The position numbers were made by a program, and so were the translations under genes. Of a DNA stretch of 64,000 nucleotides, positions 33,265 to 35,993 are shown piece by piece. The notes below the pieces were generated by a model. It did not search any database. It saw nothing but the letters and a program-made list of their open reading frames with translations, and was not told the origin of the DNA. This stretch comes from Ornithinimicrobium sp. F0845. Lineage in GTDB: Bacteria > Actinomycetota > Actinomycetes > Actinomycetales > Dermatophilaceae. Each line of letters begins with the position of its first letter. Position 1 is the stretch's first letter. The stretch is taken from the NCBI RefSeq assembly GCF_023015765.1, contig NZ_JALKAL010000002.1:1-64000 (forward strand), written 5' to 3'.

Positions 33265-33765
33265 TCAGTGCTCGCCCCGGGCGTCCGGCGCCGCGGTGGT
33301 CGTGCGGCCCCGCTGGGCCAGGTAGGTCAGCAGCAGGGTGCGCTGCAGGTCGAACATCTCCCGCTCCTCGGCCGGCTCGGCGTGGTCGAAGCCGAGCAGG
33401 TGCAGGATCCCGTGTGTGGTCAGCAGCAGGATCTCGTCCTCGACGCTGTGCCCCGCGCCGGCCGCCTGCTTGCGGGCGACCGACGGGCACAGCACGACAT
33501 CACCGAGCACGCCCTCGGGGGTCTCGGAGTCCGACCCCGGCCGCAGCTCGTCCATCGGGAAGCTCATGACGTCCGTCGGCCCCGGCAGGTCCATCCACTG
33601 GACGTGCAGGGCCGCCATCGCCTCCTCGTCGACCAGGGTGATGGCCAGCTCGGTGCGCGGGTGCACCCGCAGCTGGTCGAGCACGTGCCGCGCCAGGTCG
33701 TGCAGCTCCTGCTCGGCGACGGGCGAGGGCACCTCCCCGGACTCGTTGAGGACCTCGATGCTCAC
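33265..33765 (-). CDS. ybeY: rRNA maturation endoribonuclease YbeY
   Basis: A 166-residue zinc-dependent RNase for 16S rRNA 3' processing and ribosome quality control. The signature HGILHLLGFDH, with three zinc-binding His, is intact, and TDVMSFPMDE is typical. The GTG at 33765 overlaps the phoH stop (GTGA). A 15-residue Thr/Ala-rich tail follows the catalytic domain. Confidence 0.95.
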   Translation of the reverse strand: MSIEVLNESGEVPSPVAEQELHDLARHVLDQLRVHPRTELAITLVDEEAMAALHVQWMDLPGPTDVMSFPMDELRPGSDSETPEGVLGDVVLCPSVARKQAAGAGHSVEDEILLLTTHGILHLLGFDHAEPAEEREMFDLQRTLLLTYLAQRGRTTTAAPDARGEH

Positions 33766-35993
33766 TGCTCACCAGCCGGAGTATGTCGGGTGGTCGCCTC
33801 GTCCGTGTCGTCCCGTCCGCGCCCGCCGAGCCGGTCGTGGGGCGTGTTGCGGTCGTGGGAGCCGGGCCGGTCACGGCGGCGGCGCGACTCGTCGTGCTTG
33901 CCGTAGGCCTCGACGATCGAGCTGACCAGCCGGTGCCGCACGACGTCGGCGGAGGTCAGCGTCGCGAAGTAGATGTCTTCCACGCCTGCCAGGATGTCCC
34001 GCACCACCCGAAGCCCCGAGCTGGTGCCGGTGGGCAGATCCACCTGGGTGACGTCGCCGGTGACCACCATCTTGGAGCCGAAACCGAGCCGGGTGAGGAA
34101 CATCTTCATCTGCTCGGCCGAGGTGTTCTGCGCCTCGTCCAAGATGATGAACGCGTCGTTCAAGGTGTTGTGCGTGACCAGGAAGTCGTCAGTGACGTAG
34201 AGCGAGTCGTCGGCGGCGACCCGGATGCACACCGTCTCCTGAATGCCCACCGGTTCGATCCGATCGACGAAGCGCATCGGCCGCCCGCCGGTTCTGGCCT
34301 CATAGGTCTCGCGCTTGTGCGCCAGTCGGAACGGGGGTACCCCGGGAGGTAGGCGGATGTCGACCACGAACGCGTCGTGGCGATAGGGCACGGGCCTACC
34401 CTTGGCGCGCCCGGGTTGGCGCCCCTCCGCTGGACGGGTCCGGCAGTATGCCGTCCCCCCGAGTGAGCGCACGAGGAACACCACGTCATCGCGAAGGCGG
34501 GGCGAGACCGTCGCGTAGTGCACGCGACACGTGCGACCTGCTTGCGTGACCGGTCCTCCATCGGTGTCCAGGAGCCCCTGGAGGACGGCAAGTCGCACCG
34601 CGAAGGAGTTCACGAGGTACTCCTCAGGTACGAACTTCGTCTGGGACCGCGTGCCAGCAAGGCCGAGGTCGCGCAGCACCTCGGTGACGGGATTGGCGAC
34701 GATCACGCCTCCGCGCCCACGCCCGGCACGGTTGAGCACATAGTCGCACCCGCCCTTGTGGCGCACCTCGATCCCGTCGATGACGTCCTCCAGCGCCTCA
34801 GCCAACTCTGGGGTCGTCGTGCTGAAGGTTGGCGTCGTCGTGGCCGTGATGCACGCGTCCCCAAGGAGGAGGCCGAGTGCGTAGGGGTCCAGCGGCACCG
34901 GCCGCGGAGTCAGCTCGGGGGGACTCATCATCGGCAGCTCAAAGCGCCGGCCGTAAACAGCTCGCAGGCGACCGTCCATGTCGCTGGTCTGCACCACGCG
35001 GGTGCGGCCGCGCCGCTTGTCGGACGCGGTCTCCACCCGCCAGAGGTGCTCACCGCACGCGAGGGTCGAGGCACCGTCCTGGGTCGAGACACGGTAGACC
35101 TCGCGCGGTCCCTGCGGGTAGACCCCCAGCACCGGGGTCGGGCCTCCGTCGGAGCCGATCACCAGGTCCCCGACCCGCAGGGATCCGATATCCCGGAACC
35201 CGTCCGGAGTGAGCACCTGCGCGTCGAGGGGCTGGGCCCGACCCCGCATGTAGGCCAACGGCGCGACCTCGACGGTGCCGGAGGCCATGAGGCGCGGGAT
35301 CGAGTCGGGGTCGACCATGTCGTGCAGGGCGTCGTAGAGCGGGCGCAGGTAGGGGTCGATCTTGTCGTTGAGGGTGCCGGGCAGGAAGCCGAGCCGCTCC
35401 CCGGCCTCGACGGCTGGCCGGGTCAGGATGATGCGGTTGACCTGCTTGGCCTGCAGCGCGGCGACCGCCTTGGCCATCGCCAGGTAGGTCTTGCCGGTGC
35501 CCGCCGGGCCGATGCCGAAGACGATGGTGTGCTTGTCGATCGCATCGACGTAGTGCTTCTGGTGCAGCGTCTTGGGGCGGATCGTGCGACCGCGGTTGCT
35601 GATGATGTTCATCGTCAGCACGTCGGCCGGACGCTCCGCGGACGCGCTGCGCAGCATGCCGATGGAGCGCTCGACAGCATCGCGGTTGAGCGGTTGGCCC
35701 GCGGCGACGATCACCACGAGCTCGTCGATGAGGCGCTCGATGATCGCCACGTCCCCCGACGGTCCGGCGAGCCGGAACTCGTTGCCGCGCACCATGACGT
35801 CCACGTGCGGGAAGGAGCGCTCGACGGTCCGCAGCAGCTCGTCACGCGGCCCCAGCAGGGCGGCCATCGAGGTCTCGGGCGGGATCACCACCGTGTGCAT
35901 CGGCGCGCGCGCTGCCCCCTCGCGCCCGGTGGTCTCGGTCAGGTCGGTGTCCTGGGGTTCCTCGGAGGACCCCGGATGGTCAGGCTCTGTCAT
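33762..35993 (-). CDS. phoH: PhoH-family ATPase interrupted by an intein
   Basis: A 743-residue precursor. Excluding the intein, PhoH is 386 residues: an N-terminal KH-like part, then the helicase-like ATPase with Walker A GIGPAGTGKT (about 160-169), RPAVEAGERLGFLPG, and, after the intein, Walker B FIILDEAQNTSAEQM and VVTGDVTQVDLP. The intein (A253-N609 by this start) splits the conserved MRGR/TLNDAF junction just before Walker B, so PhoH cannot be active without splicing. The ATG at 35993 is used; an upstream in-frame opening runs through the HIT gene's 3' end. PhoH is coupled to ybeY, matching the known phoH-ybeY link in RNA metabolism. Confidence 0.95.
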   Translation of the reverse strand: MTEPDHPGSSEEPQDTDLTETTGREGAARAPMHTVVIPPETSMAALLGPRDELLRTVERSFPHVDVMVRGNEFRLAGPSGDVAIIERLIDELVVIVAAGQPLNRDAVERSIGMLRSASAERPADVLTMNIISNRGRTIRPKTLHQKHYVDAIDKHTIVFGIGPAGTGKTYLAMAKAVAALQAKQVNRIILTRPAVEAGERLGFLPGTLNDKIDPYLRPLYDALHDMVDPDSIPRLMASGTVEVAPLAYMRGRAQPLDAQVLTPDGFRDIGSLRVGDLVIGSDGGPTPVLGVYPQGPREVYRVSTQDGASTLACGEHLWRVETASDKRRGRTRVVQTSDMDGRLRAVYGRRFELPMMSPPELTPRPVPLDPYALGLLLGDACITATTTPTFSTTTPELAEALEDVIDGIEVRHKGGCDYVLNRAGRGRGGVIVANPVTEVLRDLGLAGTRSQTKFVPEEYLVNSFAVRLAVLQGLLDTDGGPVTQAGRTCRVHYATVSPRLRDDVVFLVRSLGGTAYCRTRPAEGRQPGRAKGRPVPYRHDAFVVDIRLPPGVPPFRLAHKRETYEARTGGRPMRFVDRIEPVGIQETVCIRVAADDSLYVTDDFLVTHNTLNDAFIILDEAQNTSAEQMKMFLTRLGFGSKMVVTGDVTQVDLPTGTSSGLRVVRDILAGVEDIYFATLTSADVVRHRLVSSIVEAYGKHDESRRRRDRPGSHDRNTPHDRLGGRGRDDTDEATTRHTPAGEQ
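34167..35237 (-). mobile_element. Class 3 intein with LAGLIDADG homing endonuclease domain, in PhoH
   Basis: A 357-residue in-frame insertion. The first residue is Ala rather than Cys or Ser. The block B segment TLACGEHLW lacks the usual Thr but has His and, two residues later, Trp. Block F begins with Cys (ETVCIRVAADDSLYVTDDF). The end is Thr-His-Asn followed by Thr of the C-extein. Trp at B:12, Cys at F:4 and Thr at G:5 make up the W-C-T motif that defines class 3 inteins, which splice through the block F Cys. Between them lie two LAGLIDADG motifs (ALGLLLGDACI and LQGLLDTDGG) with both acidic residues kept, so the endonuclease may be active. Confidence 0.93.

Follow-up and report, generated by a model that had tools for sequence, protein, structure and literature searches.

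The gene for a PhoH ATPase in Ornithinimicrobium sp. F0845 is interrupted by a long in-frame segment between the coding regions of its Walker A and Walker B motifs, which raises the question of what this segment is, whether it would be removed from the protein, and whether it may still be mobile. The window analysed, i.e., the whole stretch of 64,000 nucleotides in which the gene lies, was compared with related genomes, phage collections and solved protein structures. An earlier note on this DNA had taken the segment for an intein of class 3 that includes a LAGLIDADG endonuclease, and this reading is supported by the WCT (Trp-Cys-Thr) signature, by the structure model and its matches, and by the empty sites encountered in relatives.

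The interrupted phoH gene and its class 3 signature

The phoH precursor (33762..35993, minus strand, stop codon included) comprises 743 amino acids from a likely ATG start (MTEPDH...), which was picked by inspection within a mechanical open reading frame that extends up to 36089, and its adjoining downstream gene is ybeY (33265..33765, minus strand; PF02130, E 1.6e-36). The insert consists of 1071 bases (34167..35237, minus strand), encoding 357 residues from Ala1 to Asn357 in frame within the single phoH reading frame, with the junctions ...AYMRGR/AQPLDA... and ...YVTDDFLVTHN/TLNDAFIILDE.... Upstream lies the N-extein (35238..35993, minus strand), which contains the Walker A motif GPAGTGKT (35487-35510, minus strand) and ends in ...PLAYMRGR, and downstream lies the C-extein with the stop codon (33762..34166, minus strand), which starts at Thr+1 (TLNDAF) and contains the Walker B motif FIILDE (34134-34151, minus strand), 5 codons beyond the insertion point. 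The Pfam PhoH profile (PF02562), which reaches 297 bits against the whole precursor, was matched separately by its positions 2-117 and 116-204, the two matches abutting the insert on both sides. The boundaries that the earlier note had given for a 357-residue insertion between MRGR and TLNDAF, ahead of Walker B, proved exact, with one open frame; its description of these flanks as invariant did not hold for the C-side residues, which are TLN, SLN, TIN or TLS followed by D, S, N, G or E.

Class 3 inteins are defined, in PMC3196547, by the WCT triad of Trp at B:12, Cys at F:4 and Thr at G:5, and the window intein fits this definition with Trp66, Cys337 and Thr355, its block positions being assigned by eye from motif context. 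Its first residue is Ala instead of a nucleophilic Cys, Ser or Thr, and it has a block B His64-Leu65-Trp66 (35040..35048, minus strand) in which Trp follows His by two residues, and a block G ending Thr355-His356-Asn357 (34167..34175, minus strand), comprising the triad Thr, the penultimate His and the C-terminal Asn, with Thr at +1; all of these had been recognized in the earlier note. Cys337 (34227..34229, minus strand), the presumed first nucleophile, was present as claimed, but occupies position 4 of block F instead of its first residue. A class 1 or class 2 intein was rejected on the combination of Ala1 and the WCT triad.

These residues are strongly conserved. Among 37 aligned same-site PhoH inteins, a set that excludes the intein of locus L155 as identical to that of L065, His64, Trp66, Cys337, Thr355, His356 and Asn357 are invariant, and 36 start with Ala and one (L178) with Ser. 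A second alignment (A4; 39 rows), which includes other bacterial and phage inteins, has Ala1, His64, Trp66, Cys337 and Thr355-His356-Asn357 in every row. A Ser start in place of Ala was seen in three same-site PhoH inteins, L178, L193 and L199, the first of which keeps the remainder of the triad, the other two being read in part only. The best sequence matches of the window intein among solved structures were the gp41-1 intein 6riz, engineered as C1A/F65W/D107C, and its parent 6qaz; since these outrank the class 3 DnaB intein 6bs8 by sequence, the class assignment was drawn from the signature and not from overall similarity.

Predicted fold and endonuclease part

The AlphaFold model of the intein has a pLDDT of 91.7 and a pTM of 0.91, and in this confident model the intein is predicted to be a Hint splicing domain joined to a two-motif LAGLIDADG endonuclease, the endonuclease part being well modelled except for stretches near residues 171-180 and 271-290. 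The top Foldseek match was the PI-SceI mini-precursor 1ef0_A (E 1.3e-17, TM 0.66 by query length), and I-DmoI was matched as well. Over about 80 columns, the Hint part was matched by the class 3 DnaB inteins 6riy, 6rix and 6bs8 with 31-32% identity, and the gp41-1 inteins 6riz and 6qaz sit among these class 3 matches at 30-31% identity.

A Pfam endonuclease match (PF14528, E 4.5e-8) was found within the intein, and the earlier note's observation that both LAGLIDADG motifs keep their acidic residue was borne out by Asp127 in the first motif (LGLLLGDAC; 34857..34859, minus strand) and Asp226 in the second (LQGLLDTDGG; 34560..34562, minus strand). Asp127 is present in 37/37 PhoH inteins and 31/39 rows of A4, and Asp226 in 35/37 and 39/39, respectively. 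The residue after the first catalytic Asp is Ala128 in the window intein and Gly in 35 of the 37 PhoH inteins (block C column). Three PhoH inteins, L163, L186 and L008, have shortened or altered endonuclease parts with intact splicing residues: L163 is without the second acid, part of the endonuclease is deleted in L186, and in L008, from the same genus, the motifs are changed to GDES followed by a deletion and to DAGGE.

A further residue of the splicing part is Cys61, three residues ahead of the block B His; this position is Cys in 28, Ser in 8 and Thr in 1 of the 37 PhoH inteins, and Cys in 30/39 rows of A4. In class 1 inteins this position belongs to the block B Thr, and in the Mycobacterium smegmatis DnaB intein, which PMC6195587 describes as redox-sensitive, to Asp62. 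By way of Cys61, which lies at this block B Thr position, the PhoH intein might act as a redox-gated switch, which we regard as improbable; a disulfide between Cys61 and Cys337, if these are within reach of each other, would then pause splicing, so that Walker A and Walker B would stay on unjoined exteins and PhoH would be off until the stress ends.

Distribution and history of the intein

A PhoH match was obtained in all 31 genomes of the genus, four of which (G000, G005, G006 and G010) contain the intein, and in 26 the site is uninterrupted, MRGR being directly followed by TLN or SLN. Comparison of relatives for PhoH with and without the insert, as suggested in the earlier note, thus yielded 4 carriers, 26 empty sites and 1 fragmented gene (n=31). 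The latter (G008:C1:2332008-2332614) has its phoH match in three pieces and no intein, reflecting a broken gene or sequencing errors. That the site is empty in 26 of the 31 genomes, together with the signature, rules out a normal PhoH-specific domain.

Wider spread was assessed with a PhoH-intein profile (E <= 1e-60, 5 candidates scored per genome) in order, class and phylum samples that overlap and each include the window's genome. The order sample had the same-site PhoH intein in 9/396 genomes, 10 being matched, the tenth (G223) in a helicase-domain protein; the class sample had it in 24/394, 27 being matched, of which the rest were G223 and two RecG-type junctions; and the phylum sample had it in 15/396, 17 being matched, with G790 (N-junction alone read) and G520 (RecG-type junction) as the remaining matches. 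All 37 aligned PhoH inteins, including that of the window, sit between MRGR and (T/S)(L/I)(N/S), part of this set having been selected by those very junctions, and another 8 loci with both ends read share the insertion site. At this one site, class 3 PhoH inteins are spread widely but patchily across Actinomycetota. The view that a PhoH ATPase is an unusual carrier, expressed in the earlier note, was not supported: the site is occupied in approximately 2 to 6% of the genomes of the three samples, and PMC6195587 includes mycobacterial class 3 PhoH inteins. Intact, eroded and empty alleles of the same site coexist within one genus, so that nature here offers a convenient series on which to measure how an intein homes, and how its endonuclease decays, in a chromosomal gene.

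The patchy spread suggests that the intein moves between related species, and horizontal transfer within the genus is suggested because intein and extein histories disagree there. In the intein tree, the window's intein (L006) groups with L008 (support 100/98) and L007 with L009 (100/99); L163 forms a long branch near the outgroup and was flagged with a warning. In the phoH extein tree, L006 groups with the intein-free L052 (96/91), and the extein data reject both an L006 plus L008 clade (AU p 0.0006) and a clade of the four carriers (p 8.5e-6). This extein tree covers 24 of the 31 phoH genes of the genus (4 carriers and 20 empty), leaving out 6 empty genes with TLNS or SLNS, which were missed by the search string, and the fragmented gene of G008. 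Four-fold-site identity between L007 and L009 is 84% in the intein vs 61% in the extein, and dS points in the same direction (0.08-0.29 vs 0.46), any dS value above 1 being rough; for L006 and L007 the four-fold-site identities are 39% and 58%, respectively. The most straightforward interpretation is that descent with phoH does not by itself account for the four copies: there were separate entries of two intein lineages, one of which moved between the hosts of L007 and L009, or relatives of these hosts, once the phoH genes of the two had diverged.

For six congener pairs, the 20 codons on each side of the insertion were not clearly more alike than other extein, a weak comparison with about 20 four-fold sites each. 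This absence of a co-conversion signal counts against recent homing of the window's copy, as do the altered endonuclease motifs of its nearest intein relative, L008. In the wider intein tree, the rows of families f22 and f37 and three of the four f35 rows group by family (support at least 100/99), and therefore vertical descent or within-family transfer is also substantial. When the homing site was searched for with a DNA pattern, 1 of 200 loci was matched, the pattern being too strict.

Related inteins occur in phages and in other proteins. N-junctions were read in 63 of 88 related loci, and 53 of these lie directly after the GK of a P-loop-like stretch, the others being 3 at the PhoH MRGR, 4 with the GK a few residues upstream of the alignment start, and 3 of another kind. 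Two viral PIN-PhoH proteins, L096 and L134, have such inteins at the P-loop, and the second (L134:874-4635) carries two class 3-like inteins, one at the P-loop and one after FLPG; together with the cellular MRGR/T, three insertion sites in PhoH were thus encountered. A near phage source was rejected, as none of the 696 matched phage-collection records reached 60% identity. The best phage match was 43.6% (Phrappuccino, Settecandela), its host protein being annotated as terminase in 2 of 3 records and as DarB-like antirestriction protein in 1 of 3, and the best whole-intein matches on viral contigs were 41-42% in a scan by two short peptide patterns, which can miss relatives. Two phage proteins annotated as PhoH, QBQ74860.1 of GX15bay (L153:1529-4351) and QXJ36684.1 of Eggerthella phage LE2-3 (L154:2219-3838), gave endonuclease or Hint matches and no PhoH domain with Pfam; they may owe their annotation to PhoH proteins that contain an intein. 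Class 3-like P-loop inteins were also observed in RecG-type helicases, comprising L068:1708-5298, L069-L071, L078, L086, L088 and L092 of Streptomyces, and L187-L189; RecG domains were confirmed by Pfam in L068, the junction sequence of which the others share. In addition, a congener DnaB (L010:784-4026) contains another intein, 33% identical to that of the window.

Proposed working, alternatives and known systems

Very probably, the insert in this chromosomal PhoH ATPase is a class 3 intein of full size that includes a LAGLIDADG domain; its splicing chemistry is proposed here by analogy with characterised class 3 inteins, and its DNA cleavage by analogy with LAGLIDADG enzymes. In the proposed reaction, Cys337 would attack the Arg-Ala1 peptide bond and take over the N-extein, which would then be transferred to Thr+1, after which cyclisation of Asn357 would free the intein; the exteins would be ligated as ...MRGR-TLNDAF..., reuniting Walker A and Walker B and restoring the ATP site. 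Since these motifs reside on different exteins, the unspliced precursor should be without normal ATPase activity. Homing would begin with cleavage of intein-free phoH alleles at the insertion site by the LAGLIDADG domain, after which repair would copy the intein in; the disagreement between intein and extein histories lends this step indirect support.

It is possible, if rather doubtful, that the intein is late in its homing cycle, i.e., that it splices while its endonuclease is already inactive and its inheritance is now vertical. Ala128 in the first motif of the window intein favours this reading, as do the altered or lost endonuclease features of L008, L163 and L186, and the dN/dS between L006 and L008, which is higher in the endonuclease part (0.32) than in the splicing part (0.16), a difference that decay of L008 alone could explain. 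Against it stand the retention of both acids in the window intein, its mostly well-modelled endonuclease part, and the dN/dS of this part, 0.14 vs L007 and 0.16 vs L009, values that are rough, as dS exceeds 1 there. The sequence GDA is also found in the active enzyme I-SceI, which counts against an inactive endonuclease.

That the insert does not splice, leaving a broken phoH product covered by a second PhoH, is far less probable. An uninterrupted second PhoH-domain protein is indeed encoded on contig C45 of the window's genome, and a non-splicing class 3 relative without Cys F:4, Arsp-FB24 Arth_1007, appears in PMC3196547. However, the splicing residues are invariant in 37/37 inteins, the splicing part has a dN/dS of 0.09-0.25 across the six pairs of congeners, and strong constraint also acts on the extein (dN/dS 0.06 with L007 and L009, and 0.22 with L008). 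Least credible is that the segment is an ordinary PhoH domain, or an insertion specific to the lineage but not an intein; nothing was found in support of this, and against it stand the 26/31 congeners with empty sites, the predicted Hint and LAGLIDADG fold, and the invariant splicing residues.

With respect to known systems, the proposed class 3 PhoH intein shares its Hint and two-motif LAGLIDADG architecture with PI-SceI, the yeast VMA intein, but differs from it in host and site, at 16% identity. PI-SceI is a class 1 intein with Cys1. The Hint fold and WCT triad of the window's intein also occur in two DnaB inteins of class 3, DnaBi1 of M. smegmatis (6bs8) and DnaB1 of Mycobacterium chimaera (6rix, 6riy); DnaBi1, as characterised in PMC6195587, differs in lying in the DnaB P-loop, in being without an endonuclease, and in having Asp62 vs Cys61. 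The RecG P-loop inteins share Ala1 and the THN end with the window's, to which the eight from Streptomyces are 34-41% identical, but they insert at GSGK/T instead of the PhoH MRGR/T.

The closest counterparts are in mycobacteria, which belong to a different actinomycete order. A 2018 figure in PMC6195587 aligns the class 3 PhoH inteins of Mycobacterium fortuitum (OBK00716) and Mycobacterium xenopi (EID13626), which share host protein and WCT class with the window's, and M. smegmatis is said, in PMC7360933, to house a PhoH intein, which shares the host protein. Among the genomes analysed, four of family f22 have an intein at MRGR/T with 61-67% identity to the window's. One of these (G502) is probably a Mycobacterium, because it has 106 PE-domain matches vs 2, 6 and 3 in the other three; since the PE marker is not exclusive, with one weak match in the window's genome and a match in the E. 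coli control, the count of G502 alone was taken as telling. The intein in the window is not new in kind and leaves the general picture of inteins unchanged; it is a further example of a class already published in mycobacteria.
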